Source: Thermoanaerobaculia bacterium | GTDB lineage: Bacteria; Acidobacteriota; Thermoanaerobaculia; Multivoradales; JAHEKO01 | Direction of reading: 5' to 3' | NCBI GenBank assembly: GCA_945787575.1 | Contig: CALZKB010000005.1 | Span: 1-46,830 of the forward strand | DNA length: 46,830 nucleotides | Part shown: piece after piece, positions 8,395-36,186 of the stretch | Layout of the letters: each line of letters opens with the position of its first letter | Position numbering within the stretch: the stretch's first letter is position 1 | The notes under the pieces: generated by a model | The model's input: only the letters and a program-made list of their open reading frames with translations | The model's database searches: none | Told to the model about the DNA's origin: nothing | Program-made: the position numbers and the translations under genes

Positions 8395-8400
8395 CAGCCA

Positions 8401-13042: not shown

Positions 13043-13076
13043 CTCACCCTGACGGGTTGGAGTCCTTGGAGGCAGC

Positions 13077-13823
13077 ATGACCGAAACGCGCGAAGCCAGC
13101 TGGTACGAGATCGCCCTCACTCACAAGCAGATCGTCAAGATCTTCGTGGCGCTGCTGCTGTGTCTGGTGGCGGCCTTTTTCTCGGGGGTTTGGATCGGTC
13201 GTGACGGTTCGCTGTCGACGGTCGAGGCGTCGCCGCAGATCGCCGCCAGCGACCTGGCCACCGCCGTCGAGAAGGGCGAGGTCGGGCAGCTCAATTTCTT
13301 CACCCCCGACGGCAAGAAGATCGACAAGGAGAAGCCGGCCGAGCCGGAGCCGGCGATCCCAGCGGTCGGCGGCGAAACCACCCTGGTCGACGATCTCAAC
13401 GGCGCCCGAGCCGAGGACGAACAGGGCGCCGAGCCCGGAGCGAAGAACGCCCCCCCCGAGGCGTTGATCGCCCGTGCCGGCGAGGCAGGGGCACGCCGCC
13501 AAGGTCCGGATGCGGCCGTCGAGGTGACGCGAGAGACCGCGGTGGCGCCTTCGAAGCCAACTCCCCAACCGGGGGCGCACGACGCCGGCGATCTCGTGGT
13601 TCAAGTCTTCTCCTCGAACGACGCCGCCCAGGCCCGGAAGGTCCTCGGCCGGCTCGCGTCGAGCGGTCACCCGGCCTTCCTCTCTCCGGTCGAGGTCGAG
13701 GGCCGCACGATGTATCGTGTACGAATCGGACCCTACGCCGAGCGCGTCGAGGCGGAGCGGGTGGCGGACACAGTCAAGCGGACCTTCAAGCTCGAGACCT
13801 GGATCACGTCGAAATCGACCTGA
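13077..13823 (+). CDS. SPOR-domain membrane protein
   Basis: A 248-residue bitopic protein. One membrane segment (about 21-42) follows a short cytoplasmic tail. A long Pro/Ala/Glu-rich linker (about 65-170) leads to a C-terminal SPOR domain (about 178-246) with LVVQVFSSNDAAQARKVL and YRVRIGPYAERVEAERV. SPOR domains bind denuded peptidoglycan at division septa, so the protein probably acts in the periplasm in division or wall remodelling. It is followed after eight bases by lnt and probably shares the transcript. Confidence 0.85.
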   Translation: MTETREASWYEIALTHKQIVKIFVALLLCLVAAFFSGVWIGRDGSLSTVEASPQIAASDLATAVEKGEVGQLNFFTPDGKKIDKEKPAEPEPAIPAVGGETTLVDDLNGARAEDEQGAEPGAKNAPPEALIARAGEAGARRQGPDAAVEVTRETAVAPSKPTPQPGAHDAGDLVVQVFSSNDAAQARKVLGRLASSGHPAFLSPVEVEGRTMYRVRIGPYAERVEAERVADTVKRTFKLETWITSKST

Positions 13824-13831
13824 AGGGGCCG

Positions 13832-15355: not shown

Positions 15356-15486
15356 CGGCGGGAGCCGTGCCCGCCGTTCCGGGGGAAGAGGTCCCCAGGC
15401 TGCCGTGAGAGCGAATACGCATCCCGTCGTATGCTAGGTTCCGGCAGCCGGCAGTACGCCGAAACCCGCGAGCGAGTGACCCACCG

Positions 15487-16609: not shown

Positions 16610-17042
16610 CGAGGGGGGACGCTCACGCGTACTCGGTATCTGCGACGGCAACGCGCGGCTCTCTCGCCGTCGCTCACGGTCGGTCCTCGGTCGTTGCACG
16701 GTGAAGGTTCCCGCTCGCCGAGAGCCCCCTGGGCTGTCAGCACTCTCTCGCCTCGGGCCTACCGGTGGCGCGAGGGACACCCATTCCTGGCACGGTCGGG
16801 CGTCGTCCGTGTCTTTTACGACGGGAGGCCCCGGCGAGAGAGGGATGAGAGCCCAGGGGGCTTGAGCCGAGCCCTCTGAATCAACCAGGATCACATTGCC
16901 GTCCGGGGCGAAGGCGAATGAGCGCGCGTCGCCGATTCGTAGTCTGGGTACGCGCGACGTCCCCCTGGGGCTCATCCCTCTCTCGTAGGGGGCCGGCAAC
17001 TAAAGGCGAAGACTCAAAAGAACCGGAGCACCGGTACCCCGG
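16610..17042. other. Intergenic region with a repeat family, no convincing gene
   Basis: About 430 bases between convergent prfB and the NUDIX gene. No protein start with a ribosome site is visible. Its main content is the three-copy repeat described separately (16723-16986). A leftward reading frame through 16880-16960 contains DARSFAFAPDGNVILVDSEG, which resembles a beta-propeller blade, but it has no sensible start or end. Confidence 0.6.
16723..16986. repeat. Three-copy ~30-bp repeat in alternating orientation
   Basis: Copy 1 (16723-16757, +), copy 2 (16829-16862, -) and copy 3 (16961-16986, +) share a core of the form CCCCCTGGG, a short variable part, then CCTCTCTCG (ACTCTCTCG in copy 1). 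Copies 1 and 2 are inverted and share an exact 13-base end, so transcripts could form large stems. The arrangement resembles BIME-like clusters of repetitive extragenic palindromes. Confidence 0.65.
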
Positions 17043-17666
17043 CTACTCTTCGACGACCGTCTCGACGAACCCCAACCGCTCCAACAGATTCTGGATGATC
17101 CGGGCCGTGAGCCCCCACACCGGGTGCCGGCCCACGTGGTAGACGCGAATCTGCCGCTCCTGGCCCTTCCACTCGACCAGGCGCTCCTCGATCACCCGAA
17201 CGTCGGTGAACTGCAGGAGAGGGACCGAGAAGACGTTCTCGATCTCCTCCGGATTCGGCGTCGCCTCGAGCGGGTAGGGCACGACGCCGACGCACGGTTG
17301 GATCCGATAGTTGCTGACCTCGGCGTAGATCTCGTCGAGCAGGCCGAGCTTCAAGACTCGCCTGGGATCGAGCCCGATCTCTTCCTCGGTCTCCCGTAGC
17401 GCCGCGTCCCACTCGTCCTCGCCGGGATCGCGCCCGCCGCCGGGGAAGGCGATCTGCCCGCCGTGGTGCATGAGGTCCTGCGCCCGCTTGGTGAGCACCA
17501 GCCAGAGCTCGTCGGCATGAACGTAGAGCGGCACCAGCACCGACGCCGATCGCCCGCGGTGGTCGTCGATCAGTCGCTGCGGCTCCGGCGCCTCCAGCCG
17601 CTGCCGGAGGTCGTGGACCCAGGTCTGCCACTGAGGGGACGGGGCTGAAGTGACCTGCTCACTCAT
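17043..17666 (-). CDS. NUDIX hydrolase, CoA pyrophosphatase type (NudL/UPF0035)
   Basis: A cytoplasmic NUDIX enzyme of about 207 residues that would cleave CoA or its derivatives to phosphopantetheine and 3',5'-ADP. The full NUDIX box is present from GGRDPGEDEWDAALRE to TEEEIGL, and it is preceded by the CoAse block LTKRAQDLMHHGGQIAFPGG that marks the NudL subgroup. I chose ATG 17666 (MSEQ); an in-frame GTG at 17687 would add seven residues, and neither has a clear ribosome site. It lies 60 bases downstream of selA and may be cotranscribed with it. Confidence 0.9.
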   Translation of the reverse strand: MSEQVTSAPSPQWQTWVHDLRQRLEAPEPQRLIDDHRGRSASVLVPLYVHADELWLVLTKRAQDLMHHGGQIAFPGGGRDPGEDEWDAALRETEEEIGLDPRRVLKLGLLDEIYAEVSNYRIQPCVGVVPYPLEATPNPEEIENVFSVPLLQFTDVRVIEERLVEWKGQERQIRVYHVGRHPVWGLTARIIQNLLERLGFVETVVEE

Positions 17667-17726
17667 CGGGAGCGGATTGTCTCGCACCGAGGGAGACAGA
17701 GCAACCGACCGAGATGGAGACCGAGG

Positions 17727-19118
17727 TCAGTCGAGCGCCGTCAGCCGTTCGAGCAGGTCCCCCAGGTCGTCGGCCGGCACGGTGCGCAGATCGAGCACCA
17801 CGGCGTCATCCCGCACCCGGCCGAGAATGCTCGGATCGCCGACGCGCAACTGGGCCGCCAGCTCGTCCGCCGAGCAAGCCGCTCGCCGCAGGCGCACCCC
17901 GAAACTGGGCACCTCCACCAACGGCAACGCTCCGCTCCCCGGCCGCGCAGTGGTCGCCACCACCTCGACCTCGAGCCCGTTTACGTCCGCCAGATCCGCC
18001 GCCAGCTCGCGCGCTCTCGCCTCCACCACCTCGACCGCCTCCGCCAACTGGGCGAGAGCCGGAACCCCCGCAATCGCTGCCTGGGGTCCGTCGAGGTACA
18101 GCTGCAGGGTCGCCTCGAGTGCCGTATAGACCATTCGTCCGGGCCGCATCGCTCGAAACAGCGGATGGCGCCGGCAGCGGTCAACGGCCTTCGAGGTTCC
18201 CGCCAGCACTCCCGCCTGGGGCCCGCCGAGGAGCTTGTCACCGCTGAAGCAGACCAGATCCACGCCCGCCGCCAAAGAGTGCTGTGCTTGCTGCTCCGGC
18301 GGCAGCCCCGACTCCCCGAGATCCAACAGGCAGCCCGATCCCAGGTCATGGATCACCGGAATCGAGTGCTCACGTCCCAGCGCCACCAGCTCTTCGATTC
18401 CGACCTCGCTGGTGAACCCCTTCACCTCGTAGTTCGAAGTGTGGACCTTGACCAGCGCCCCGGCCTCGCCGTCGAGCGCCCGCGCGTAGTCCTCCAGATG
18501 GGTTCGATTGGTCGTCCCCACCTCGGTCATCACCGCGCCGCTCTGGGCGATGATCTCCGGAATTCGATAGGAGCCGCCGATCTCGACCAGCTCGCCTCGC
18601 GAGAGCACGACCTTGCGACCCTCGGCGAGCGCTGCCAGCGCCACCAACGTCGCCGCCGCGTTGTTGTTGACGACGGTGGCCTCCTCGCAGCCGAGAATGC
18701 GGGTCAACAGTTGGGCGCAGCCGGCGTCACGCCCGCCGCGCTCGCCGGTCTCGAGGTCGATTTCCAGCCGCTGGGGCCGGACCGCCAGCTCGCGGACCGC
18801 CTCCGCCGCCACCTGCGGTAGCGAGGCCCGGCCGAGCCCGGTATGGAGCACCACCCCCGTCGCGTTGATCACGCGCCGATAGTAGGGGCGGATCTCACGC
18901 CCCAATCTCCGCTCGACCTCGAGTGCCAGCGCCGCCGGCGTGAGCTCCTCAGGGTCGAGATTGCCGGCAACCGCCTGTCGCCTCACTTCGGCGAGCTGCT
19001 CCCGCAGGCCGGCCACCACGCGGATGCGCGAGAAGCGGTCGAGCAAGGCACTGAACGACGCGTTCTGGAGGAGCTGGTCGGCCTGCGGGATGCGGCGAGG
19101 GAGAGTGGGGTCGGCCAT
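17727..19118 (-). CDS. selA: L-seryl-tRNA(Sec) selenium transferase
   Basis: A 463-residue PLP enzyme that converts Ser-tRNA(Sec) to Sec-tRNA(Sec) with selenophosphate. Family blocks are NATGVVLHTGLGRA (about 85-98), VNNNAAATLVAL, EIGGSYRIPEI, VKVHTSNYEVKGF and the PLP lysine Lys295 in CFSGDKLLGGPQAGVLAG, the same residue number as in E. coli SelA. Length is normal. The organism should therefore make selenoproteins, although selB, selD and tRNA-Sec are not in this window. The ATG at 19118 fits the conserved N-terminal length. Confidence 0.96.
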   Translation of the reverse strand: MADPTLPRRIPQADQLLQNASFSALLDRFSRIRVVAGLREQLAEVRRQAVAGNLDPEELTPAALALEVERRLGREIRPYYRRVINATGVVLHTGLGRASLPQVAAEAVRELAVRPQRLEIDLETGERGGRDAGCAQLLTRILGCEEATVVNNNAAATLVALAALAEGRKVVLSRGELVEIGGSYRIPEIIAQSGAVMTEVGTTNRTHLEDYARALDGEAGALVKVHTSNYEVKGFTSEVGIEELVALGREHSIPVIHDLGSGCLLDLGESGLPPEQQAQHSLAAGVDLVCFSGDKLLGGPQAGVLAGTSKAVDRCRRHPLFRAMRPGRMVYTALEATLQLYLDGPQAAIAGVPALAQLAEAVEVVEARARELAADLADVNGLEVEVVATTARPGSGALPLVEVPSFGVRLRRAACSADELAAQLRVGDPSILGRVRDDAVVLDLRTVPADDLGDLLERLTALD

Positions 19119-19520: not shown

Positions 19521-21149
19521 ATGAAGAAGGACCGAGCTTACTTGTGTCTGCTCGCCGTGGCCGGCTGGTGCTGGCTCGCGGCTCCGGTGGGTGCCCAAAC
19601 CCCCAACGACGACCCGCCCGACCCGGGTGGGCCCTCGATGAGTGATGTCGTGCTCCACACCTCGGGGTTGATCAAGCTGGGTATCCGGGACGAGGGGCAT
19701 CTCAACGTCGTCGGTGGAGAGGGCATCGCTTCGATCGGGTCCGGCTCGACGATCGACGCTGGGTTGCGGCTCGTCTTTCCGAACGGCGACGAGGCCGAGG
19801 CGACGGCCCCCGGTTGCCTGTGCGAGGGGTGGGGCGCGTCGGGAGATGCCGTCTCCGGCGGTGCCAGCGTCGACCTTGGCGGGGTCTTCAACCTGTCCAA
19901 CATCACCTTCGCTTCGGACGGCACGGCCGCGACGTCGACCGTCGACGTCGGTGCGACGCTGAGGGTGACTCACGATTACCATCCCAGCGCCGACACTCCC
20001 AACCTCTACGAGTCGACGGTGACGATCGAGAACATCTCGGGCGCTCCGCTCGCCGACGTCAGGTATCGGCGGGTAATGGACTGGGACATTCAGCCCTTCA
20101 CCTTCAACGAGTGCGTGACCATCAGCTCGGGGACGGCGACCGACCTGGCGTTCGTCACCAACAACGGCTTCGACGGAACGGATCCGCTCTCGCCCCCCGC
20201 CGTGGACCCCGGCCCGGATCCCTACTTCAGCATCGGCGACCGCGTGGATGATGGACCGAGGGATCACGGCGCCCTGTTCCAGTTCGAGTTCGGAGCGCTG
20301 GGCGTCGGTGAGTCGATGTCCTTCAATATCTACTATGGGGCCGGCTTCACCCAGGCGGAGGCCGCGGCGGCTCTCGCCGCGGTCGGGGCGGAGGCCTTTT
20401 CCTACGGCAAGCCGGCCATCGACTTTGAACAGGGTCCTCCGTTTGGCGATGGCGAGTGCGACTCCGACCCGGAGAACGTCTTCATCTTCGCCTTCAGCGG
20501 TATCGGCGGTGAGCCGGATACCGAGCCGCCGTTGTGCTTCCTGTCGGACTTCGATCCGGGTCCGCCGATGGCGATCGAGGTGACGACCCAGGACCTCGAG
20601 TCCGGTCTGGATCAGATCCTCGTGACCGTGCTCGAAAACGCGACGGTCACCATCCCGCCGTTCATGCAGGGGACCAACGACGTCGTGCTGGTGACGGCGG
20701 AGAAGACCGACCCGGCCCTACCGGCGCACCTGGAGCTGGCGGTCCTCGATGTCTTCGGCAACGAGACGGTGTGCGATCCGGTGCTGGTGCGGTTGGAGAT
20801 TCCGAAGAACGCGTGGCAGGTGAGCGAGACGTTCCGGGGGATCCCGGAGTACGAGCGCTTCATCTCGCTACAGAACGGCTCGCCGGGAGTGCATCGTTTC
20901 CAAGCTCTGGTCAACCGCAGCGGTCGGTACACCCTGCCCTTGCGACCGGGACAGGAGGCGTTGATCGACGTCACGAAGTCGATGATCCCGGGCGACAACA
21001 CGATCAGGCTGAGCGCTTCGGGCGCCCCAGGCTCGTGGCTGGTGGTGTTGATCTCGGACGGTGTCGGCGGTGGCAATGAGCTGGACCTGCGCAAGCTGAC
21101 CGGGGTCCGCGCCAGAGGTGTGAACCTCGATTGGAGGGGCCGACCTTGA
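19521..21149 (+). CDS. Exported protein: choice-of-anchor-like domain plus shared C-terminal module
   Basis: A 542-residue exported protein. The ATG at 19521 follows GAAAGGAGA and gives a clear signal peptide ending near PVGAQ (about 25). Residues 38-330 resemble a domain I know from PEP-CTERM proteins, with EATAPGCLCEGWG, THDYHPSADTPNLYE, YRRVMDWDIQPFTFNE and DHGALFQFEFGALG; there the same domain is followed by a PEP-CTERM anchor, which is absent here. Residues 338-542 are the C-terminal module shared with the proteins at 26555 and 34165, including the conserved Cys pair (LCFLSD; NETVCDP). Function unknown; surface or periplasmic location is inferred. It has its own terminator. Confidence 0.85.
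   Translation: MKKDRAYLCLLAVAGWCWLAAPVGAQTPNDDPPDPGGPSMSDVVLHTSGLIKLGIRDEGHLNVVGGEGIASIGSGSTIDAGLRLVFPNGDEAEATAPGCLCEGWGASGDAVSGGASVDLGGVFNLSNITFASDGTAATSTVDVGATLRVTHDYHPSADTPNLYESTVTIENISGAPLADVRYRRVMDWDIQPFTFNECVTISSGTATDLAFVTNNGFDGTDPLSPPAVDPGPDPYFSIGDRVDDGPRDHGALFQFEFGALGVGESMSFNIYYGAGFTQAEAAAALAAVGAEAFSYGKPAIDFEQGPPFGDGECDSDPENVFIFAFSGIGGEPDTEPPLCFLSDFDPGPPMAIEVTTQDLESGLDQILVTVLENATVTIPPFMQGTNDVVLVTAEKTDPALPAHLELAVLDVFGNETVCDPVLVRLEIPKNAWQVSETFRGIPEYERFISLQNGSPGVHRFQALVNRSGRYTLPLRPGQEALIDVTKSMIPGDNTIRLSASGAPGSWLVVLISDGVGGGNELDLRKLTGVRARGVNLDWRGRP
20532..21146 (+). other. Shared C-terminal module, copy 1 (205 residues)
   Basis: This coding segment is homologous to 26558-27178 and 34168-34788. 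The first half looks Ig-like (FDPGPPMAIEVTTQD..TGTND..LVTAEK..VCDPV); the second half has IPEYE.FISLQN.SPG, MIPGDNTI and APGSWLVVLISDG. It ends NLDWRGRP. It is the most divergent of the three copies. Confidence 0.9.
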
Positions 21150-21171
21150 TCTGAAGTCTGCGTTGACTTCA

Positions 21172-21206
21172 GCGCCCTTCGAGCTCCGCTCGAAGGGCGC
21201 TTTTCT
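21172..21206 (+). terminator. Rho-independent terminator
   Basis: A perfect 12-bp stem (21172-21183 / 21189-21200) with a 5-nt loop is followed by TTTTCTT. It closes the exported-protein gene at 19521. The same design ends the two related genes on the other strand. Confidence 0.92.
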
Positions 21207-21269
21207 TGGTGAGGCGGAGCGAAGTGATCTGCGGCTCGGGGAACCCTGCACCGCGGATTTGAGTATCCT

Positions 21270-22415
21270 GTGACACGACCGATGCCCACCGTCCAAGTCG
21301 TCAGCTCCATTCGCTCGCTCGATCCCGTCGCTTGGGACGAGCTCGCCGGTGACGAGGTCCTGGCGACCCACGGGTGGCTGCGGACCGTGGAAGAGACCTA
21401 CGCCGCCGACCTCGAGCCTCGGTACTACCTCGTTCACCGGGAGGGGCGCTTGCTCGCTGCCGCGGGCTGTAATCTGGCTGTAGCGACGGATCGGGACTTC
21501 ACCCTGGACACGACGGTGTACGGCAGGTTCGCGAACGTCGCCGCCGGGCTGGGTCTCGCGCTGCTCCCTGCGATGCTCTGTGGACCTATCTCGTCCTGCG
21601 GCACGCACTTGCTCGTCGCCAGCGATCTGCGGCCTCGCGAGAAGGCGGCCCTTTTCGAGATGCTCTTGGAGCGTTTGGAGAGCGCTGCCTTCGGCCGCGG
21701 ACTGCCTCTCGCTTTCGACCGAGTCTTCGCCGAGGAGTCCGACTTGATCTCCGTGCTGCGGCGGCGCCGTTACAACCAGACCCGGCACAGCCCGATGTGC
21801 TACCTGGACGTGAGCTGGCCGACATTCGACGGCTACCTGGGTCATCTGCGTGGAATGAGCAGGAACATGGCAAGAAACGCTCGCCGCGATCTCAAGAAGA
21901 TGAGCCGCGCCGGCGTCAGCGTCGAGCGAATCCGGGACACCTCTCGATTGGAGAAAGAGCTCTACGACCTCGCCGAGGCTCACTGGTACCGGCACAACGG
22001 TGCCTCGTTTCCGTTCAAATCCGACTTCTTCGCCAGCCTTCGCGAGAATCTCGGTGAGAATGCCGTGGTCTATGGCGCCTTCGACGGTTCCTCGCTGATC
22101 GGCTTCTCGCTGCTCTTGGAGAAGGGCGGCGTCGCGGTGGGCATGTATGTCGGACTCCACAGTGTCCGTGCCAGAGAGGCGGCTTTGTATTTCAACCTCT
22201 GCTACTACGCTCCGATCCAGGCAGCGGTCGGAGAAGCCGGCCGACGCATCTACTTCGGCCGCGGCTTGCGCGAGACCAAGATTCGCAAGGGCTGCGAGAG
22301 CAAGGATCTGTATCTCTTCTTGAAGTCGCCGAGCACATTGAAGCACATCGCGTTCGGGGTGTTGTTCTTTCTTCGCTCGGCCCGGAAGCGCTACGAGACG
22401 CGTGCGGGGACCTAG
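21270..22415 (+). CDS. FemAB/GNAT-like acyltransferase (BioF2-like)
   Basis: A 381-residue cytoplasmic protein with the double-GNAT look of FemAB-like and DUF482/BioF2 acyltransferases. Typical features are WLRTVEETY near the start, the middle block YLGHLRGMSRNMARNARRDL (Arg/Lys-rich, about 190-210), LYDLAEAHWYRHNG, and the C-terminal GNAT-like half GAFDGSSLIGFSLLLEKGG and YFNLCYYAPIQAAV. Family members transfer aminoacyl or acyl groups in wall, capsule or exopolysaccharide synthesis. It starts 120 bases after the terminator of the exported-protein gene and is followed on the same strand by a DegT-type gene. Substrate unknown. Confidence 0.75.
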   Translation: MTRPMPTVQVVSSIRSLDPVAWDELAGDEVLATHGWLRTVEETYAADLEPRYYLVHREGRLLAAAGCNLAVATDRDFTLDTTVYGRFANVAAGLGLALLPAMLCGPISSCGTHLLVASDLRPREKAALFEMLLERLESAAFGRGLPLAFDRVFAEESDLISVLRRRRYNQTRHSPMCYLDVSWPTFDGYLGHLRGMSRNMARNARRDLKKMSRAGVSVERIRDTSRLEKELYDLAEAHWYRHNGASFPFKSDFFASLRENLGENAVVYGAFDGSSLIGFSLLLEKGGVAVGMYVGLHSVRAREAALYFNLCYYAPIQAAVGEAGRRIYFGRGLRETKIRKGCESKDLYLFLKSPSTLKHIAFGVLFFLRSARKRYETRAGT

Positions 22416-22468
22416 CGACCATGTACGGAGAGCACAGGGCACACTAGGTCTCGACCAGGAACCAGGGC

Positions 22469-23728
22469 ATGCTCTCTGCTAACGACAGGACGGTTGCGCG
22501 ATTCTACTCCGTGCCGTCGTACGTCCCCGATTGGGGACTCCGGGAGTTTCGCGTCATGGTGCGTTGTCTCGTGACCAACCGGATCGTGCGCGGTGACTAT
22601 CCGCGGCAGCTCTGCGAGATCGCGAGCGAGGAGCTCGGCGTGCCCTATGCGCTGCCGTTCAACCGCGCACGGTGGGCGATCCAGGCAGCGTTGGGCGCTC
22701 TGGAAGTCGGCGGCGGCGATGAGGTGGTCGTCCCTTCCTACGTGTGCGAGTCGGTACTGCAGCCGATCGCCAACCTCGGAGCGCAACCGGTCTACGCCGA
22801 TACGGGGCCCGACCTGCACCTCTCCGTCGATACGGTCGAGAGGGCCATAACGACCCGGACAAAAGCTGTGATCGTGGCTCATTTGTACGGCAACGCAGCC
22901 CCCATCGCGGCCATCGAGAACCTGCTCGCGGGTAGCGGAGTCGCGCTCATCGACGACGCCGCCCAGTCGTTGGGCGCCAGAAGTGACGGACGTCCCGTCG
23001 GGACATTCGGCACCTGTGGCATGGTTGGGTGCGGTCCAGGGAAGTCCCTGGCCGGTCCTGCCGGTGGATTGCTCCTCACTCGCGAACGCGAGCTTTACGA
23101 TCGCATTGCCTCGAATCCTCCCCGGAACGAGAGCGCCGCGACCGTCTTCCGTCGGGTTCTCGCATTTTGGATCTGGTTCCGCCTGCGGAGGTACACCTTG
23201 GGCTTCAAGCCGATCTCCGACGCGCTTCTGGCGGCTTCCAAGAGTTCCGACGCGCAGCCTCGCTGGATGTCGAATCTCGACGCCGCACTCGTCCTCGAGC
23301 AGCACGGAAAATGGCACCGGAACGCCGACTTGCGGCGCGGTGTCGGCGAGGAGATCTTGCGTGTTCTGGGCGATGCCGAGCACTTCTGCATCTCCGATCT
23401 CTCACCTTCCGGAATCGCGCTGAGAATCGTCCTGATTCTCCCGGAGGCAGGTCCGACGGCTAACGAAGTCGTGGCGTTCCTCCACCGCGCCGGCATCGAA
23501 GCCAGGAGAGGTTACGAACCGCTCCACGGCACTGCGGACACCGCGGGCGAGAGCCTGCCGGTGACCGAGACCCTTTCGGAGCGTACGGTACTTCTGCCCG
23601 TGACGAGCTCGCTCATGAGACGTAGGCCACGGCAGGCTCTCGAGAAGCTGGCGGCCTGGATCCTGACCGGGGCCACCCAGGTCTCCGGCGGAAACCCCGA
23701 CGCAGGCTTCCACAGAGATCCGAGCTAA
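22469..23728 (+). CDS. DegT/DnrJ/EryC1/StrS-type aminotransferase
   Basis: A 419-residue PLP fold-type I enzyme of the sugar aminotransferase group. Visible blocks are VVVPSYVCESVLQPI (about 86-100), the PLP-ring region LIDDAAQSLGA (Asp162-Asp163) and the Schiff-base lysine Lys192 in GCGPGKSLAGPAGGLL. The lysine context differs from the usual SFhpxKxxtxGEGG, and a hydrophobic insertion (VFRRVLAFWIWFRLRRY, about 225-240) follows it. It would transfer an amino group to a nucleotide keto-sugar or similar compound. Its stop overlaps the convergent ATP-grasp gene by four bases. Confidence 0.8.
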   Translation: MLSANDRTVARFYSVPSYVPDWGLREFRVMVRCLVTNRIVRGDYPRQLCEIASEELGVPYALPFNRARWAIQAALGALEVGGGDEVVVPSYVCESVLQPIANLGAQPVYADTGPDLHLSVDTVERAITTRTKAVIVAHLYGNAAPIAAIENLLAGSGVALIDDAAQSLGARSDGRPVGTFGTCGMVGCGPGKSLAGPAGGLLLTRERELYDRIASNPPRNESAATVFRRVLAFWIWFRLRRYTLGFKPISDALLAASKSSDAQPRWMSNLDAALVLEQHGKWHRNADLRRGVGEEILRVLGDAEHFCISDLSPSGIALRIVLILPEAGPTANEVVAFLHRAGIEARRGYEPLHGTADTAGESLPVTETLSERTVLLPVTSSLMRRRPRQALEKLAAWILTGATQVSGGNPDAGFHRDPS

Positions 23729-24921
23729 CTGGCCCCGGAGCGGAAGAGTCCGCGAGTCCTGTCTCTCAGCTCCAACAGGATCTTGCCGACCAAGGGGAGT
23801 GGATCCGTGAGATCGCCGTTGGTCCTCGCTCGCTTCGCCGCGAGCTCGGACCAGACCGCCTTGACCATGGTCCAGTGGATCCCGCGCGCCTTCGCCTCCG
23901 ACTGAATCGACTTCAGGTAGTACGAGACGTTGATGCCCTTCATCTCGGCCGGATACTCCGGAGTGCGGATCGCTTGTGCCGAGGTACCTAGTGCCAGCGC
24001 GGCCGCGATCTCCGGGAAACCGACTCCGCAGTTGATTGCGAAACCCAGGTTGCCCGAGACTCTCGGGTTGATCTCGATCAGTTTCGGTTTCCCGTCACGC
24101 GAGTCGATCTTGAATTCGATGTCAGCGGGGCCCTGCCATTCCCATCGCTGCAGAAGCGGCAAGATGATGTCGACCAGCTCCGGTTCATGGGTGCTCACTC
24201 CCAAGCCGCAGACTCCTCCGATGATCGGGTACTCCCTGACCTTCTTGAAGGTGAAGTGGGCGGCGACGCGACTCTGTTTGTCGAGGATCACGTTGAGCGC
24301 CCTCATCGCCTCCGGCGCGCCGGGGATGTATTCGACGATGACCGTGGGACCGTACTTCTCTTCCACGCGGTCACGAGCCCGAATCAGGGATTCCGCGTCT
24401 CCCACGATGTGGACCCCCCTCGAGCCTCCGAGCTCCTTTCGCGGCTTGAGCACGACGTGAAGAGCCGGCCCGTCGGACGTTCCTTCCTCGAGGGCCCTCA
24501 AGGCCGTTGGCAACGAGAGGATCCGAGGACAGGGGATACCCAGTGCGGCGCAGTCTTCCAGGGTGCGCCGGTTGTCGTGCGCGGCTGCAAATGCGTCGGG
24601 ATCCGGCACGAGCACGTCGGCGTACTCTTCGACCGCCGCGCGATTTCGAGATACGGCCTCGACGCAGAAGAGAGGCAGGAGAACGTCGACCCCTTCGCTC
24701 TCCAGCAGCCCGATCAGGGCGGCGACGAACCCCGGATCTTCGTGAGACGGTAACCGGGAGTAGGGTGGCGTGTACTTCGAATGAAGGGCGAACGGCAGTC
24801 GGCGATCATCCGCGCCGATCACGTCATAGCCAGCCTTGGAGAGACTCTGGATCGAGACCAAACCGGCGCGGATCGTCGCATCCGTGACGAGGACTCTCGT
24901 CTTGACCTTGCCACTGTCCAC
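23725..24921 (-). CDS. ATP-grasp ligase
   Basis: A 398-residue ATP-grasp enzyme that would couple a carboxylate to an amine or similar nucleophile using ATP. The N-terminal Rossmann-like part starts RVLVTDATIRAGLVSIQSL; the ATP-grasp core shows VVLKPRKELGGSRGV (about 155-170), VIVEYIPGAPEAM, and the metal-binding end IEINPRVSGNLGFAI. The gene starts at GTG 24921. It belongs to the PylC/CarB-like group of carboxylate ligases that occur in surface-sugar and peptide clusters. It is downstream of the CapK-like gene on the same strand. Substrates are unknown. Confidence 0.85.
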   Translation of the reverse strand: MDSGKVKTRVLVTDATIRAGLVSIQSLSKAGYDVIGADDRRLPFALHSKYTPPYSRLPSHEDPGFVAALIGLLESEGVDVLLPLFCVEAVSRNRAAVEEYADVLVPDPDAFAAAHDNRRTLEDCAALGIPCPRILSLPTALRALEEGTSDGPALHVVLKPRKELGGSRGVHIVGDAESLIRARDRVEEKYGPTVIVEYIPGAPEAMRALNVILDKQSRVAAHFTFKKVREYPIIGGVCGLGVSTHEPELVDIILPLLQRWEWQGPADIEFKIDSRDGKPKLIEINPRVSGNLGFAINCGVGFPEIAAALALGTSAQAIRTPEYPAEMKGINVSYYLKSIQSEAKARGIHWTMVKAVWSELAAKRARTNGDLTDPLPLVGKILLELRDRTRGLFRSGAS

Positions 24922-25018
24922 TGGCCAGCACCTCCCGACTGCCTTCTCGCAACCCTAGCAGCCCCCTTGTCGCGCGACCCACAGGACTTCTGCCACGGGC
25001 TGCTAGCTCGGCTCGGTC

Positions 25019-26299
25019 CTAGAATTCTCGCCTCACGGGCTGGTACTTGCCTCCGCCTTCCTTCTCGATGCGATCGACCTGCTTGAGCTCGACGATCATC
25101 TCGGCTCCGACCGCTTCACGAATCCTCGCACCCACGGCCTCGAAGTCTCTCGCCGGCAACTCGTTGTCGAACGTCGTGAACTCGATGCGTAGCTTCGCTG
25201 GCTCGGAATGGATGACCTGATACCTCTTGACGACAGGATGACGCTCCAGCCAATGCTCCACGACATACGGTGAGACTCGCCGCCCGCTGGGCAGCGTGAC
25301 GAGGTCGACGTCACGTCCATCGAACGCCTCGAAAGCCGTCGAGGCCCGGCCGCAGGCGCACGCCTCCCGAGCCAGACACCCGCGGTCTCCAATCGAGAAG
25401 CGGATCAGGGGCATCGCGCGATTCTGGAGGCTCGTCAGAATCAGGGCTCCCGTCCGGTCGTCGGCTGCCGACGAGTCCGGTTGCACCTCCACATAGGTAC
25501 TCTCGAAGTTGACGTGATAGCGGCCACGTTCGCATTGCCAGGCGACCTCATTGAATTCGGTGCTCCCATAGACGTCGCAAACCCGAGCCCCGAAGCTCTG
25601 CTCGATCCGTCGGCGCGTGCTTGCCGTCAACCGCTCCGAGCTCGTGAAGATCAGGGGAACCTCGGGGATCACGAGGCCACGGCTGCGATACTCCTGCGTG
25701 AGATCGACGAGGAAGGACGGATAGGAGTAGAGAATGTCGGGTCGATAGTCCTCGATAAAGTCGATGGCCGAATCTAGTGGTTCAAAGAGGGACTTGAACT
25801 CGATTCGAAACAGCCGGGGCGGTGCGAAGATCGGCCACTGCTTGCGTCGAGGGAGATCGGCGACCGGGAGGGCGCGGATCACCAGCAGTCTCTTGAAGAG
25901 CGGGCTGGTCAGCGCGAAGAGCTTGCGCATCTTGATCGCGTACCTGCAGGTCAGGAGGCAGTCTCGATCAAAGTACATGATCGTCGGCTCGCCGGTGCTG
26001 CCGGAAGTCCTCGATGACGCTAGACAGGCCGGGTCGAAGCCTGCCGCCAGCAGATCGCCTGCCCGCTCCTGTAGATCGGACTTGCGGAGGATCGGGAAAC
26101 GCTCGAGGTCGAGATGGCTGGCAATGGAGGAAGCGCTGATTCCGAAAGAGCGGTAGTAGGGAACGTTGGTTACGGCGTAGCGAAGGGTCTCGACGAGCCT
26201 GTCCCGGTGGAACTTCTCGATCCTCTCTGCGGGCCACCATTGTGAACGCTGAAGGGAGAGCAGAGAGGCCAGAACTCTGATCGTGTCGAGCGTTTTCAT
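25019..26299 (-). CDS. CapK/PaaK-like adenylate-forming enzyme
   Basis: A 426-residue member of the phenylacetate-CoA ligase/CapK family. It has the N-terminal block YAVTNVPYYR (about 41-50), the nucleotide loop SRTSGSTGEPT (96-106), DILYSYPSFLVDLTQ, the motif VYGSTEFNEVAWQCERG and a short C-terminal domain ending EKEGGGKYQPV. Cysteines at ACACGRAS match the zinc-like region of many CapK proteins. CapK proteins occur in capsule and exopolysaccharide clusters and probably activate a carboxylate. Base composition looks less GC-rich than in the flanking housekeeping genes (by eye), as in its two neighbours. Confidence 0.85.
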   Translation of the reverse strand: MKTLDTIRVLASLLSLQRSQWWPAERIEKFHRDRLVETLRYAVTNVPYYRSFGISASSIASHLDLERFPILRKSDLQERAGDLLAAGFDPACLASSRTSGSTGEPTIMYFDRDCLLTCRYAIKMRKLFALTSPLFKRLLVIRALPVADLPRRKQWPIFAPPRLFRIEFKSLFEPLDSAIDFIEDYRPDILYSYPSFLVDLTQEYRSRGLVIPEVPLIFTSSERLTASTRRRIEQSFGARVCDVYGSTEFNEVAWQCERGRYHVNFESTYVEVQPDSSAADDRTGALILTSLQNRAMPLIRFSIGDRGCLAREACACGRASTAFEAFDGRDVDLVTLPSGRRVSPYVVEHWLERHPVVKRYQVIHSEPAKLRIEFTTFDNELPARDFEAVGARIREAVGAEMIVELKQVDRIEKEGGGKYQPVRREF

Positions 26300-26485: not shown

Positions 26486-26521
26486 GAACAAAGCGCCCCT
26501 CGAGCCTGGCTCGAGGGGCGC
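26486..26521 (-). terminator. Rho-independent terminator
   Basis: A perfect 12-bp stem (26493-26504 / 26510-26521) with a 5-nt loop, followed on the minus strand by TTTGTTC. It closes the gene ending at 26555. Its stem differs from the terminator at 21172 only in a few paired bases. Confidence 0.85.
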
Positions 26522-26554
26522 CGAAGTCGACACGGAGTCGACACGAAGGTCAGA

Positions 26555-28888
26555 TCATCGTTGGCCGCCCCAGTCAAGGTTGGCCCCGTCGGCGGCGCGT
26601 ACCGCTCTGAGCTTGGCGGCGAGCTCGCGCGCACCCGCCTCGCCGACGCCATCCGAGATCAGCACGGTCAGCCACGATCCCGGAGCGCCCCAGGCGCTTA
26701 GCGTGATCGTGTTGTCGCCCGGCACCATCGACTCTGCGACGTCGATCAGCGCCTCTTCCTCAGGCTGCAAGCGCAGACCATAGCGGCCCTTGCCGTTGAC
26801 CACCGCCTGGAACCGCCGCACTCCGGGCGAGCTGTTCTGCAGCGAGATGAAGCTCTCGTACTCGGGGATTCCGTGGAAGGTCTCGCTCACCCGGCGCTGA
26901 CCTCGTGGAATCCGTAGCCTCACCATGACCGGATCGCACACCGTCTCGTTGCCCGCGATGTCGGTGACCGACAGCTCCAGGTGCGCCGGCAGCGACTGGT
27001 TGATCTTCTCCGCCGTCACCAGCACGATGTCATTGGTCCCCGGCGTGAACGGCGGGATGACGACCGTCGCGTTCTCGAGCACCGTGACGACGATCGCGTT
27101 GAGACCCGTGCCACCGTCCTGGGTCGTCACCTCGATCGCCATCGGCGGCCCCGGATCGAAGTCCGACAGGAAGCAGTCCGGCGGTGTCACGTCGGGCGGC
27201 CCGAAGACGGTAGGCTGGAGGATGAGGATCCCCCAGGCGGTGTTTAGGTTGCGGGTCCAGTTGCCGATGTTCACCGTCGGCGCCCAGCTGCCGTCTCCCG
27301 CCTGGGTGCGCTCGAGATAGCCGAAGTATCCCTCGTGGACGTCGCCGGCGGGCGGCAAGACACCCGGATTCGCCTGATCCTCGCCGGTCTCCCAGTCGAA
27401 GACGACGCCGTTCTTGTCCACCAGCAGCCCGGTGGCGTTGAGCCGCAGGGCTCGCGCCGTCGTCCACATGGCGTAGAAGTTGCCGGGGTTGCCGGCCCAG
27501 ACTCCGGGCGCGGCGTCCCAACGCAGGCCGAGATGGGCCACCGCTGCGCTCTTGCGGGTGGCGGTGTCGGGAAAAGTTGCCGATGAGAGGGTGCCGCCGT
27601 CGAGCAGCGGCGCCACGCGCCCGCCCGCGGTCACCATCACTAGGCCGGATATCCCGCCGGCCGTGGTCGCATTGCCGTCGAAAGCGATCGGAGCCGTGCC
27701 GCCATAGCCGAACTGGCCCAGGTCGCCCGGGCCGCCCTGCGACTGGCTGGAATCGATGCGCCGCTCGGCCTCCTGCTTGACCAGCTCCAGCACCGCGCCC
27801 CCGAAGACCGTCTCAAAGCCCTCCATCGCCACGTAGTGCCAGCTGTCGACCGAGGTGTCCGCGGAGCCGTAGTTGGCGCCGTATCGCCAGCCGCCCCGGC
27901 CGCCGCCTTCCTCCTGGGCGTACGCAATCCAGTCGATCGTGTCCTGGATCAGGTTGACATAGGTGTCGCCGGGCATCTGGCCGGCGAAGGATCCGGGAGC
28001 CACGACCGTGCCGGGTGCAGCGCTGTAGGCGGCAAGGATCCCCGCCGCCGCGATCGGCGTGGAGTAGCCTTCCCGGATATCCGGAGAGAACAGTCCGGGG
28101 CACAGATTGATGATCCGGCCGTTGGCGTCGCCGTCGGGGTCGCCGATGTTGGGCTGCGGTCCGAATCCGGGAGCGCTGGCCTTGGAGAGGATGAAGTCGA
28201 TCCCCTGCTGCACGAACTCGGCGTAGATGTCGGTGTCGACGTCGTTGGTCGGCAGGTGGCCGCTGTTGGCGAACGCCCACACGGTAAACCCGGTGGTGCC
28301 GCAGTCCCAGCCGGCCTGCGACCCGTGAGCCCATCTGCCGTTCGCCTGCTGATTCAGGTAGGCGTAGCGCAGTCCGTCCTGGATCGCGATGTTGACCTCG
28401 ATCGCCTGGTTCTCGAGCGGCGTGTCCGAGATCATGTCGGTCGGATCCACGATGTCGATCACCACCGTGTCGGCGTCGACCCCGCCCGCGAGATCGTCCA
28501 CCGTCAGAGTGCAGGTGACGAGCTCCCGCGTGCTTCCGCCGAGCAGGTTGAAGGTGACCGCCTCGAAGATATAGCGGTCGTCGGTCACGGTGCCGATGAG
28601 CAGGCCGTCGTCGACGATCTGTACGTTGCCGGGATTGTCTGCGACGCACGCCCAGGTGTAGGTTTCGCCGATGGCGGTGCCGTCGGCGATGCCGCCGCCG
28701 GTGCCGGCGTTACCGAACAGATCGATCATCGCGCCCGGCCTTACTTGCCAGGGCTCGATCGAACCGGCGCGCCAGGTCGTCATCACGTTGACCCGGTCGG
28801 CGGCGGCGGCGCCTTGGACGACTGCCAGGGTAGCGATACACAGCAGGACTCCTATCCTGCCGCAGCGAGGAACGCTTGGGAGCTTCAT
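26555..28888 (-). CDS. Exported alpha/alpha-toroid (prenyltransferase/squalene-cyclase-like) protein with shared C-terminal module
   Basis: A 777-residue exported protein. I chose ATG 28888 because AAAGGAGA precedes it and it opens a signal peptide (MKLPSVP... ending near QGAAAA, about 30); an upstream in-frame start at 28948 lacks these. Residues 31-170 look like a beta-sandwich with TCTLTVDDLAGGVDADTVV. Residues 170-565 contain repeated toroid motifs such as NGRWAHGSQAGWDCGTTGFT, GGWRYGANYGSADTSVDSWH and GDGSWAPTV..NTAWGILIL, as in terpene-cyclase and complement-like folds. Residues 571-777 are the shared C-terminal module, ending NLDWGGQR. Enzyme activity is not evident; a binding or scaffold role is equally possible. 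Confidence 0.82.
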   Translation of the reverse strand: MKLPSVPRCGRIGVLLCIATLAVVQGAAAADRVNVMTTWRAGSIEPWQVRPGAMIDLFGNAGTGGGIADGTAIGETYTWACVADNPGNVQIVDDGLLIGTVTDDRYIFEAVTFNLLGGSTRELVTCTLTVDDLAGGVDADTVVIDIVDPTDMISDTPLENQAIEVNIAIQDGLRYAYLNQQANGRWAHGSQAGWDCGTTGFTVWAFANSGHLPTNDVDTDIYAEFVQQGIDFILSKASAPGFGPQPNIGDPDGDANGRIINLCPGLFSPDIREGYSTPIAAAGILAAYSAAPGTVVAPGSFAGQMPGDTYVNLIQDTIDWIAYAQEEGGGRGGWRYGANYGSADTSVDSWHYVAMEGFETVFGGAVLELVKQEAERRIDSSQSQGGPGDLGQFGYGGTAPIAFDGNATTAGGISGLVMVTAGGRVAPLLDGGTLSSATFPDTATRKSAAVAHLGLRWDAAPGVWAGNPGNFYAMWTTARALRLNATGLLVDKNGVVFDWETGEDQANPGVLPPAGDVHEGYFGYLERTQAGDGSWAPTVNIGNWTRNLNTAWGILILQPTVFGPPDVTPPDCFLSDFDPGPPMAIEVTTQDGGTGLNAIVVTVLENATVVIPPFTPGTNDIVLVTAEKINQSLPAHLELSVTDIAGNETVCDPVMVRLRIPRGQRRVSETFHGIPEYESFISLQNSSPGVRRFQAVVNGKGRYGLRLQPEEEALIDVAESMVPGDNTITLSAWGAPGSWLTVLISDGVGEAGARELAAKLRAVRAADGANLDWGGQR
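26558..27178 (-). other. Shared C-terminal module, copy 2 (207 residues)
   Basis: By hand alignment about 170 of 207 residues are identical to copy 3 (34168-34788), and the DNA is also very similar, with an identical stretch of over 30 bases around 26833. The toroid parts of the two proteins are far more different. This points to recent duplication, gene conversion or very strong constraint on the module. Confidence 0.9.
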
Positions 28889-29248: not shown

Positions 29249-30577
29249 CTACCCCTCTCCGTCCGGCGGCTCCGGCTGCTGCTGCCGGAGAGCGTCGAGG
29301 AATCCGGGCGGCACCGGCTCGCCCAGCTCTCGTGCCTTCTTGACGTGCACCCAGGCGGTGCGGTGGTCCCCGCCGCGGGCGAGGGCCACGGCGAGGTGGA
29401 AGTGCAGCTCGCCGTCGTCGGGTCTGGCGCTCAGCACCCCGCGCAAGAGGGCGATCGCCTCATCCACGTCCGCGGTAACGAAGCTCGGCTGAAAGGTCAG
29501 CAGGATCGCCAGTCGAATCGCCGCGGACTCGTGCCGCGGGTCGATTCGTAGAGCCTCACGATAACCCTCCATCGCCTCCTCGAGCCGGCCGGCGCGGGCG
29601 AGGATGCCCGCCAGCTCGAAGTGAACGTCCGCCTCCTCGCCGCGGAGCTCGAGCGCCTTGCGAAGTAGGGACTCGGCCTTCGTCCACTCCCCGGCGAACG
29701 CGGCTCGTTGACCTCGCTGGCGGTAGCCGGCCGACGACACCGCCTCCTCCAACATCTCGACCATCACCGGATCGTCGAGGGCCAGCTGTCCTTGCTCGCG
29801 GCGCGCGAGATCGGCCGCACGAGCCGCCGCCTCCGCATCGCCCGTGAGCCGGTAGGCACGGGCGAGGGAAGCGTGGATGGAGGCGGCCTCCGGCTGAAGC
29901 TCGAGGGCGCGCTGCAGATGGAGGAGAGCGGACTCGGCATCGCCACGCTCCAGATAGAGCCGCCCGAGCCCGAAGTTGGCGCCGGCAAGCTGTGGTCGGG
30001 CCGCGAGAATCTCCTGGTACTGCTCGAAGGCGCTATCGGAACGGCCCAGCTCCTCCAACAGTCCAGCTCGCAGCAGACCGGCCGGAGCGAAGCCCGGGCG
30101 CAGGTCCATCGCCCGCTCGAGGTAGCGCAGGCTGAGTTCGGGGTCTTCCTGATGGACGTCGTGGGCCAGCAGATAGGGCCAGCGGAATTCCTCGGGATCC
30201 AGCTCGGCGGCGCGTCGATAGCAGGGGAGTGCCTCTTGCCACATCTCGTGACTCTGGAAGACCATGCCGAGCCGTCCCCAGCTCTCCGCGGAAGTCGGGG
30301 ATTCGAGTACCGCCTGCCGATGGCTGCGGATCTTCGCCGCTACCTGGGTCTCGAGTGGGGAGAGGTCGGGATCGGGCGGTAGACGAACTTCGGCCGTCTC
30401 TCCCGAGAGCCGCGGCTCGGCGTTCGCGACGCCTGCGGAGGGTGAGGGCTTTCCACACGCGGCGCCGACGAGGATCGAGAGAACGGCAGCGACGGCCGGC
30501 ACCCTCGCCGGCGGGCGCCGCTCGGGCCGGAGAGAGGCCCGCTTTCGGGGCGCGGGCCACGGCAGATTCACCATCAT
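29249..30577 (-). CDS. TPR-repeat protein, probably exported
   Basis: A 442-residue tetratricopeptide-repeat protein. ATG 30577 overlaps the upstream stop (ATGA) and follows GAGGAAGAG; longer readings run through the upstream gene. The N-terminus has a basic start and a hydrophobic stretch ending LVGAACGKPS, which may be a weak lipobox. About eight to ten TPR units follow, for example ESWGRLGMVFQSHEMWQEAL, LERAMDLRPGF, GLGRLYLERGDAESALLHL and EAMEGYREALRIDPRHES. It is the last gene of an operon with two FG-GAP/ASPIC proteins, a frequent neighbour pair (CRTAC1 plus TPR), suggesting a shared surface complex. Confidence 0.88.
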   Translation of the reverse strand: MMVNLPWPAPRKRASLRPERRPPARVPAVAAVLSILVGAACGKPSPSAGVANAEPRLSGETAEVRLPPDPDLSPLETQVAAKIRSHRQAVLESPTSAESWGRLGMVFQSHEMWQEALPCYRRAAELDPEEFRWPYLLAHDVHQEDPELSLRYLERAMDLRPGFAPAGLLRAGLLEELGRSDSAFEQYQEILAARPQLAGANFGLGRLYLERGDAESALLHLQRALELQPEAASIHASLARAYRLTGDAEAAARAADLARREQGQLALDDPVMVEMLEEAVSSAGYRQRGQRAAFAGEWTKAESLLRKALELRGEEADVHFELAGILARAGRLEEAMEGYREALRIDPRHESAAIRLAILLTFQPSFVTADVDEAIALLRGVLSARPDDGELHFHLAVALARGGDHRTAWVHVKKARELGEPVPPGFLDALRQQQPEPPDGEG

Positions 30578-34103: not shown

Positions 34104-34142
34104 GGCAAGAAAAGCGCCCCCCGAGCTGGGCTCGGGGGGCGT
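34104..34142 (-). terminator. Rho-independent terminator
   Basis: A stem of 11 GC-rich pairs plus one G-U (34114-34125 / 34131-34142) with a 5-nt loop, followed on the minus strand by TTTTCTTGCC. It closes the gene ending at 34165. Its T-run matches that of the 21172 terminator base for base over the first seven positions. Confidence 0.9.
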
Positions 34143-34164
34143 CGATGCGGACATGAACGTCAGA

Positions 34165-36186
34165 TCAACGTTGGCTGCCCCAGTTGAGGTTCGCCCCGTC
34201 GCCGGCGCGCACACCCCTCAGCCTGGAGGCCAGCGCGCGCGCACCCTCCTCTCCGACTCCGTCCGAGATCAGCACGATCAGCCACGATCCCGGAGCGCCC
34301 GAGGCGCTCAGCGTCATCGTGTTGTCGCCCGGCACCATCGACTTGCTGACGTCGATCAGCGCTTCCTGCTCCGGTTGCAAGCGCAGAGCGTAGCGACCGC
34401 TGCCGTTGACCACCGCCTGGAAACGCTTCACTCCCGGCGAGCTGTTCTGCAGCGAGATGAAGCTCTCGTACTCCGGAATCCCGTGGAACGTCTCGGTCAC
34501 CCGCCGCTGTCCCTTCGGAATCCGCATTCTCACCATCACCGGATCGCACACCGTCTCGTTGCCGGAGACGTCGATGACCGTCAGCTCGAGCGACGCCGGG
34601 AGGGACTGGTCGATCTTCTCGGCCGTCACCAGCTGAATGTCGTTGGTCCCCGGCGTGAACACCGGGATGTCGACCGCCGCGTTCTCGATGTGGGTCACCA
34701 GGATCTGGTCGAGGCCGGTGCCGACGTCCTGCGTCGTCACCTCGATCGCCATCGGCGGACCTGGATCGAAGCCCGACAGGAAGCAGTCGGGCGGATCCGA
34801 CTCGTCGCAGGCGTCGCCGATGCCGTTGTCGTTGCTGTCGGTCTGGTCCGGGTTGGGAACGGACGGACAGTTGTCGTCCTCATCGCAGACCCCGTCGTCG
34901 TCCGAGTCCAGGCAGCCGCCGCCGGTCGAGCGCTCCAAGACCAGAAGGGCGTAGGACTGCTGTGAGAACTGGTCCCACAGACCCTGCGGGTTCGGGTCGT
35001 ACCGCCCGCCGGGCAGCTGGTGCGCGAGCACCTCGTGGGCGAAGTCGTAGTAGTTCCCCGCCGGGAAGTCCGAGTAGTAGCCGGGTCCCTCCCCGCCGAA
35101 CAGCGGCACCCGGGGATCGGCCGTCGGATCGCGGTGGACCTCACGCGAGCCGCCGCACACCGGCGCGTCGCCGGGGGGCAGCATGCCGATGTCGGTGTGG
35201 GCGAGGTTGCCGGGATCGGGGCTGACCCCCGAGGCGTCGAGGAACTTGATCGCCTTGGAGGTGGTCCAGAGGTAGTACCAGTAGCTGAACTCGAAGCCGT
35301 CGGAGGCACTAGTGATGTCGGTGAAGCGGTAGCGGTGGTAGAGCCAGCGCATGTAGGCCTGGACCGAGGCGTCATTGAGATCGGCCCCGCCGACCAGCTG
35401 GATCCACAGTCCGGAGCCGGTCTGCTGGATCGAGGGCGAGTTGCCCCGGTTGTAGCCATGGCCGCGTTCGTCCGCCGAGCATATTCCGCCAAAGCCACCT
35501 TGCAAGGCGTTATCCACGTAGGCCTGACGCGCCTCGGCGGCGTCGGTGTCGAGCTGCGCCAGCCGCGCCGGATCCGAGTAGAGCGGATCCGAGTAGACGC
35601 CCCGCAGCGAGGCGAGGCCGGCGACCACGAACTGGGTCGTCGACGAGTCGTCGCAAGCGGTATTGAAACCGTCTTCGTAGCACCAATAACCGTGGGGGCT
35701 GTTCTGGCTGGCGTGGACCTTGTCGAAGATGTGGTTCAAGCCTCCGATGAGGTCGAAGGGTAGTCCGCCGGGCAGGTCGGGATGGTCTCCGCGATCGGGT
35801 CCGCCGGTCTGCAGATAGAGGGACAGCGCCATCATGAAGGCACCGTCGCGATACGTGACCCCGACGGAGGGGATCTGACCCAGGATGTAGGCGGTCGTCA
35901 ACCGCATCCGTCCCTGGTCGACGGCGCTGGCGCCGGCGTAGCCCTGCGGCGGGTCGCCGAAATCGGACCCACGCTTCTCGAGCAGAGCCAGCAGGCAGAG
36001 GCCGGCCGCTTGGCCGCAGTTGCTGGGATTGTTGAAGGCACCCTGGCCGTCGAGCCAGGTCAGACCGTTGTCGATCGACGTCGCGACGTCGGTGCTGAAG
36101 TTGGTCACCTGGCCGCTGGCGGCCACCACCGAGAGCAGCAGCAGGGCGCCGACGAGGCAGGTTACTTTCGTTCTCGATTGGATCAC
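34165..36186 (-). CDS. Exported alpha/alpha-toroid-like protein with TSP3-like linker and shared C-terminal module
   Basis: A 673-residue exported protein. The GTG at 36186 follows GAGGAG and begins a signal peptide (TKVTCLVGALLLLSVVAASG). Residues 25-435 contain toroid-type repeats: GLTWLDGQGAFNNPSNCGQA, HASQNSPHGYWCYEDG, STTQFVVAGLASLRG and FSQQSYALLVLERSTGG. A short Asp-rich thrombospondin-3-like stretch follows (DSDDDGVCDEDDNCPSVPNP.., about 440-463). Residues 467-673 are the shared C-terminal module. It lies 13 bases after a six-cysteine mini-protein gene in one operon. Activity unknown; calcium-dependent surface exposure is inferred. Confidence 0.83.
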   Translation of the reverse strand: MIQSRTKVTCLVGALLLLSVVAASGQVTNFSTDVATSIDNGLTWLDGQGAFNNPSNCGQAAGLCLLALLEKRGSDFGDPPQGYAGASAVDQGRMRLTTAYILGQIPSVGVTYRDGAFMMALSLYLQTGGPDRGDHPDLPGGLPFDLIGGLNHIFDKVHASQNSPHGYWCYEDGFNTACDDSSTTQFVVAGLASLRGVYSDPLYSDPARLAQLDTDAAEARQAYVDNALQGGFGGICSADERGHGYNRGNSPSIQQTGSGLWIQLVGGADLNDASVQAYMRWLYHRYRFTDITSASDGFEFSYWYYLWTTSKAIKFLDASGVSPDPGNLAHTDIGMLPPGDAPVCGGSREVHRDPTADPRVPLFGGEGPGYYSDFPAGNYYDFAHEVLAHQLPGGRYDPNPQGLWDQFSQQSYALLVLERSTGGGCLDSDDDGVCDEDDNCPSVPNPDQTDSNDNGIGDACDESDPPDCFLSGFDPGPPMAIEVTTQDVGTGLDQILVTHIENAAVDIPVFTPGTNDIQLVTAEKIDQSLPASLELTVIDVSGNETVCDPVMVRMRIPKGQRRVTETFHGIPEYESFISLQNSSPGVKRFQAVVNGSGRYALRLQPEQEALIDVSKSMVPGDNTMTLSASGAPGSWLIVLISDGVGEEGARALASRLRGVRAGDGANLNWGSQR
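34168..34788 (-). other. Shared C-terminal module, copy 3 (207 residues)
   Basis: Same module as copies 1 and 2. It starts right after the TSP3-like linker at DCFLSGFDPGPPMAIEVTTQ and ends NLNWGSQR at the stop. The conserved pair of cysteines could form a disulfide. Confidence 0.9.

Follow-up and report, generated by a model that had tools for sequence, protein, structure and literature searches.

The window analysed here is a 46,830-nucleotide stretch of the genome of a Thermoanaerobaculia bacterium (assembly GCA_945787575.1, contig CALZKB010000005.1, positions 1 to 46,830), and the element in question is an island of four enzyme genes at 21270-26299, located directly between two genes for exported proteins that share a C-terminal module. 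We read this island as a small, species-specific accessory gene set for glycan decoration, probably horizontally acquired, that came to lie between the two module genes either through chance or because the site is an insertion hotspot, and assign this reading a probability of about 0.55. The data suggest that the four genes are ordinary accessory sugar-type genes rather than machinery acting on the module; their most likely product is an N-acylated amino-sugar or amine for a surface glycan that is assembled elsewhere. If so, the place of the island between two module genes is no evidence of a functional link, and it is base composition, terminator-like hairpins, and the distribution of the module that separate the one from the other.

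The four enzymes

All four island open reading frames (ORFs) are complete, and they are ordered as two genes on the plus strand followed by two on the minus strand:

21270..22415, plus strand: FemAB_like/GNAT-type (Acetyltransf_6) acyl- or aminoacyl-transferase, 381 residues (PF04339, PF13480)
22469..23728, plus strand: DegT/DnrJ/EryC1/StrS-type aminotransferase, 419 residues (PF01041, alignment to 2c7t)
23725..24921, minus strand: ATP-grasp ligase, PRK12767/carbamoyl-phosphate-synthase-like, 398 residues (PF15632, PRK12767-type models, paralogue on contig C43)
25019..26299, minus strand: PaaK/CapK-like adenylate-forming enzyme, 426 residues (NCBIfam PaaK-type models, PDB 4r1l)

An initial annotation of this DNA had named the same four enzyme types, and Pfam and NCBIfam searches bear these out. 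The FemAB protein matches FemAB_like (PF04339) over nearly its full length (E 4.4e-20, residues 13-343) as well as Acetyltransf_6 (PF13480; E 1.2e-8); it had no match to NCBIfam at E ≤ 0.001 or to PDB sequences at E ≤ 1, and its structure prediction (mean predicted local distance difference test score, pLDDT, 36.6) was of too low quality to search for folds. The DegT protein matches PF01041 (E 6.2e-49) and aligns with 2-deoxy-scyllo-inosose aminotransferase (2c7t) and other sugar aminotransferases in the PDB, with conservation of the GK of the catalytic stretch, which presumably holds the lysine that binds pyridoxal phosphate (PLP). The ATP-grasp protein matches PF15632 (E 2.9e-11) and PRK12767-type NCBIfam models (down to E 1.2e-18), and aligns to the ATP-grasp region of carbamoyl-phosphate synthase in the PDB, including the EINPR stretch. 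The CapK-like protein matches Pfam AMP-binding (E 9.8e-7, slightly short of the curated cut-off) and NCBIfam PaaK-type models (down to E 1.7e-33, likewise short of the curated cut-off); it aligns with phenylacetate-coenzyme A ligases across the TSGSTGEPT and YGSTE stretches (4r1l, E 2.3e-22). Because the NCBIfam matches of the DegT, ATP-grasp, and CapK-like proteins fall below curated cut-offs, and the FemAB protein has none, these are family-level assignments without a substrate.

The initial description of the layout, as two pairs that each converge with touching stops, is not borne out. The sole convergent junction lies between the DegT and ATP-grasp genes, whose stops overlap at 23725-23728; inside the pairs, gaps of 53 nt (FemAB to DegT) and 97 nt (ATP-grasp to CapK) separate the genes. 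The two gene pairs are opposed, and the four genes cannot form a single operon.

From these families we infer a scheme that extends to the substrates, the order of steps, the joint action of the four enzymes, and the use of their product in a glycan. The DegT protein would aminate a keto-sugar or similar precursor, and the FemAB/GNAT protein would place an acyl or aminoacyl group onto the amine so made; the PaaK-like enzyme may activate a carboxylic acid as an adenylate or thioester, and the ATP-grasp enzyme could join carboxylate and amine into an amide. Glycosyltransferases and a polymerase from another locus, such as the O-antigen-type one on contig C43 of the same genome, would then take up the product.

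Relatives of the enzymes and their neighborhoods

Relatives were sought in a set of 118 genomes and in 396 genomes drawn from the phylum, two sets that overlap in part; genes in the relatives were called with a home-made caller, and some calls have wrong frames. The CapK-like protein has matches in 28 of the 118 genomes, this one included (E ≤ 1e-20), and the closest of these relatives (34% identity) adjoins glycosyltransferases, a flippase-type gene, and a pyruvyltransferase. Neighbors within two genes were collected at 26 of the 29 other places (two in G067 and one in G112 were omitted) and comprised 90 proteins, of which 13 belong to GT1/GT4, 9 to GT2, 6 to Wzy_C, and 4 to Polysacc_synt, with 3 pyruvyltransferases. 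The 25 most frequent families in a control of 90 proteins, drawn at random from 99 on selA-bearing contigs, include none of these glycan families; both sets exclude proteins shorter than 120 residues. At the same 26 places, several of which are on short contigs, tblastn (1e-3) located a DegT gene at three, an ATP-grasp gene at one, and a FemAB gene or the module at none.

At 1e-20, the ATP-grasp protein matches 3 of the 118 genomes and the FemAB protein one, in each case counting this genome; at 1e-12, FemAB matches were recovered in 7 of the 396 genomes, itself included, with the others at no more than 27% identity. DegT matches are generic (53 of 118 genomes). Contig scans, which reach only close relatives and may omit this genome, returned no relative for the FemAB protein or for four module copies. 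Among plasmids, the ATP-grasp protein matched 92 records and the CapK-like protein 197; the three that were opened lie near a flippase gene (H21), near a polysaccharide-biosynthesis gene (H47), and near glycosyltransferases and a flippase (H54).

The initial annotation had proposed that a link to the module would fall if the four enzymes proved to be part of a larger, well-known sugar locus in relatives lacking it. For CapK and ATP-grasp singly, relatives do occur in glycan loci without the module; the foursome as such was found nowhere else. The ATP-grasp gene of contig C43 (L105) lies directly beside a weakly PHP-like gene, and an ATP-grasp gene and a PHP gene are also found together at a plasmid match in Natribaculum.

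FemAB relatives on plasmids point in another direction. Sixteen plasmid records matched, all at 22-27% identity, and in each of the six that were opened (H1, H2, H7, H8, H12, and H14) a PLP enzyme is encoded in the same cluster as the FemAB relative. These six clusters are of a small-molecule- or lipid-like kind and are not glycan loci. The four enzymes could accordingly make a small diffusible or lipid-like amine or peptide-like metabolite, in which the DegT protein would supply the amine, the FemAB protein would cap it, and the PaaK-like and ATP-grasp enzymes would activate and join acids. FemAB relatives on two Streptomyces plasmids (24-27%) immediately follow an L-amino-acid-ligase-type ATP-grasp gene and a major facilitator superfamily exporter; others, on Agrobacterium and Rhizobium plasmids, come after a class-III aminotransferase gene, with exporter genes close by; and in G270, the gene just before the FemAB relative belongs to the class I/II aminotransferase family. 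However, the island ATP-grasp enzyme belongs to the PRK12767/PF15632 type, relatives of which were seen in glycan loci within this phylum, and it is not recognizably related to the Streptomyces ligase; in addition, CapK relatives are mostly in glycosyltransferase loci, and the island contains no exporter. We regard such a metabolite as the strongest alternative, though one that is clearly less probable than a glycan product.

Taken with the DegT alignment, the PLP enzymes beside FemAB relatives agree with part of the initial proposal that these enzyme types suit the making or linking of an amino-sugar or peptide-like group: the making, acylating, or ligating of an amine or amino-sugar stands, while the link to the module does not.

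Base composition and origin of the island

GC content at third codon positions (GC3) in the FemAB, DegT, ATP-grasp, and CapK genes is 0.81, 0.77, 0.79, and 0.77, respectively. These values are lower than those of 26 further window genes with 200 residues or more (mean 0.854; exact Mann-Whitney p 0.002), a background in which two calls (29708 and 33351) probably represent spurious frames and pull the mean down. The three module genes in the window have GC3 of 0.85, 0.87, and 0.88, above the island; set against 17 genes of contig C43 (mean 0.767), the island shows no difference (p 0.24). This contig carries an O-antigen-type locus with sugar epimerases, Polysacc_synt_2, Bac_transf, GT4 proteins, Wzy_C, DegT, NTP_transf_5, and a deacetylase; it also holds a paralogue of the island ATP-grasp gene (32% identity), and no module.

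Neither sister species (G001, G002) has a match to the FemAB, ATP-grasp, or CapK-like proteins at 1e-20, and the module is absent from both. Window genes from 5555 to 19118 keep their order in G001, where 11 window proteins match one contig; this contig ends 0.9 kb past selA, and synteny is lost just outside selA. The absence from the sister species and this loss of synteny together fit a recent acquisition. Where this genome has a module gene beside selA, G001 has a FitA-like/PIN toxin-antitoxin-type pair (L133:161-829), which suggests a variable region beside selA. On the other side, the gene that borders the block on its right (37747-38955) matches nothing in the two sister genomes and thus reveals no empty site.

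Several observations weigh against an accessory glycan-decoration set. The 32 window proteins scanned with Pfam include no glycosyltransferase, initiating transferase, flippase, or polymerase, in line with the initial remark that the island lacks the genes of a normal capsule locus. The pairs are on opposite strands and may be expressed separately; GC3 is a weak marker of origin, here with n = 4; and random insertion into a stretch of ~16 kb in a 5.6-Mb genome is improbable a priori, which leaves room for a real association. The plasmid clusters around FemAB relatives favor the other type of product, and for this reason the probability of the glycan reading is set no higher than stated above. 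Finally, the exact foursome occurs in no other genome searched, and the case for joint function thus rests on adjacency; this uniqueness is a sampling effect and not evidence of a new system.

The opposed strands, and the finding of relatives as single members or pairs only, would also agree with a lack of joint function, the island being either two pairs of genes unrelated to each other or what is left of a larger locus. Against this, the four frames are full length, three of the proteins align over catalytic stretches to solved relatives, and the alike GC3 of all four genes suggests one source; we consider a lack of joint function somewhat less probable than a metabolite product.

The C-terminal module and its separation from the island

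The module is ~209 residues long and is encoded three times in the window, with 72-82% identity among the copies:

20526..21149, plus strand: module copy 1, in the exported protein 19521-21149
26555..27184, minus strand: module copy 2, in the exported protein 26555-28888
34165..34794, minus strand: module copy 3, in the protein 34165-36186

The first two copies terminate the proteins on either side of the island and are 72% identical, so its placement directly between two module genes was described correctly at the outset. A fourth copy in this genome is on contig C325, which is only 3.5 kb long and makes its neighborhood uninformative. The module end has no transmembrane segment or PEP motif upon sequence inspection; structure prediction yielded mostly strands (mean pLDDT 51.7), likewise of too low quality to search for folds.

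Outside this genome, the module was recovered in G021 and G029 (3 of the 118 genomes, this one included) and in G186 (2 of the 396, this one included). Their four module copies have none of the island enzymes nearby (neighborhoods of 5.1-20 kb), contrary to the co-occurrence expected if island and module formed one system. Genome-wide searches of G021 and G029 at E ≤ 1e-20 recovered neither CapK nor ATP-grasp nor FemAB matches, and in G186, where FemAB was the one searched for of these three, it had no match at 1e-12. In G021 and G029, two genomes of the same taxonomic order, the module gene is followed by a mini-ORF ending in RFSF (L095:10550-10624 in G021; L096:2686-2763, minus strand, in G029), whose N-terminal part fits the lasso-leader pattern YxxPxLxxxGxxxxxT. 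In G021, PqqD and Transglut_core3 genes come next, and a radical-SAM/SPASM gene lies upstream; module neighbors there are of a peptide-modification type and not the four enzymes.

Within the window, each module gene is followed by a terminator-like hairpin:

21171..21201, plus strand: 14-bp hairpin with T run, after module gene 1 and before the FemAB gene (z -3.3)
26492..26522, minus strand: 14-bp hairpin with short T run, after module gene 2 and before the CapK gene (z -4.7)
34115..34141, minus strand: 12-bp hairpin with T run, the equivalent after module gene 3 (z -4.1)

A similar hairpin (~12-14 bp, with T run) is present right behind the stop of all four module copies of this genome (compared stretches 21117-21208, 26492-26522, 34106-34197, and L098 on C325); z-scores derive from shuffles for the three window copies, and the C325 copy was compared by eye. 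The region as a whole has no excess of terminator-like sites (5 counted vs 5.4 expected from shuffles), so what speaks for insulation is the length of the stems and their repeated presence after each module copy. Judged from their sequence, the hairpins would separate both flanking module genes from the island, and module and hairpin look to have been duplicated as one unit, with the enzymes outside it. A single operon with the module genes was rejected in view of the hairpins and strand changes.

These results bear on the initial proposal, made from position, that the island may build or attach a partner molecule of the module; the model for such a linking group would be the Wbp/Vim linking sugar of type IX secretion cargo. 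The location of the island exactly between two module genes speaks for it, and the aminoacylated linking sugar of VimA/Wbp is its best precedent (PMC7468200). Yet the enzymes are near the module in none of the three other module genomes, hairpins part the module genes from the island, GC3 differs between the two, and neither an exosortase nor Por_Secre_tail was detected (searches given below); the lack of a membrane segment or PEP motif at the module end argues in the same direction. We consider a linking role unlikely. In its most specific form, the exported module proteins would carry an aminoacylated or N-acylated amino-sugar built by the four enzymes, a counterpart of the Wbp/Vim linking sugar that evolved alongside an unrelated C-terminal module, with acid activation by the PaaK-like and ATP-grasp enzymes replacing WbpS/VimE; this form is more doubtful still.

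Elsewhere in the window, two tandem FG-GAP/ASPIC-UnbV proteins (30574-32412 and 32268-34040, minus strand) contain 300-nt stretches that are 79% identical. A TPR gene adjoins this pair; the listed ORF (29249-31432) overlaps its neighbor in another frame, and its start is uncertain.

Comparison with known systems

XrtA/PEP-CTERM exosortase loci likewise have a FemAB-type gene near exported proteins with a common C-terminal segment. Unlike in those loci, the FemAB protein here has no match to TIGR03019, and the module has neither PEP motif nor membrane helix; exosortase (PF09721) had no match in this genome, with the control matching in 1 of 14 genomes. An exosortase system was rejected on the basis of the missing exosortase and TIGR03019 matches.

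The Wbp/Vim system resembles the island in that one sugar there is the substrate of both a DegT aminotransferase (WbpE) and an amino-acid transferase of GNAT/FemAB-like type (VimA), and in that the linking sugar is tied to exported proteins sharing a C-terminal domain. The island differs in having no WbpA/B/D/I or VimE-like gene, with an ATP-grasp and a PaaK-like enzyme instead; polysaccharide deacetylase, sugar dehydrogenase, and hexapeptide acetyltransferase are absent from the 32 window proteins scanned with Pfam. The module also differs in sequence from the type IX C-terminal domain. Por_Secre_tail (PF18962) had no match, with the control matching only below its cut-off, and SprA_N had none in this genome, although no control genome matched either. 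In Porphyromonas and Tannerella, VimA (N-acetyltransferase/FemAB-like) and the Wbp enzymes produce an aminoacylated linking sugar, which becomes attached to the C-termini of cargo proteins (PMC7468200); if a linking role were true here, it would represent a second, independent bacterial way to tether exported proteins via a C-terminal sugar.

Compared with O-antigen and exopolysaccharide loci, such as psc1/psc2 of Rubrivivax gelatinosus and that on contig C43, the island has no glycosyltransferase, initiating transferase, flippase, polymerase, or export gene alongside and consists of two opposed pairs instead of one operon. These loci draw on the same enzyme families (CapK, FemAB-type, DegT, and ATP-grasp). 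In R. gelatinosus, FemAB-related and CapK genes belong to one 75-kb polysaccharide cluster and a DegT gene with an acetyltransferase to a second (PMC3684757). Loci of this kind are also home to the nearest relatives of the island CapK and ATP-grasp genes, and the GC3 of C43 matches that of the island.

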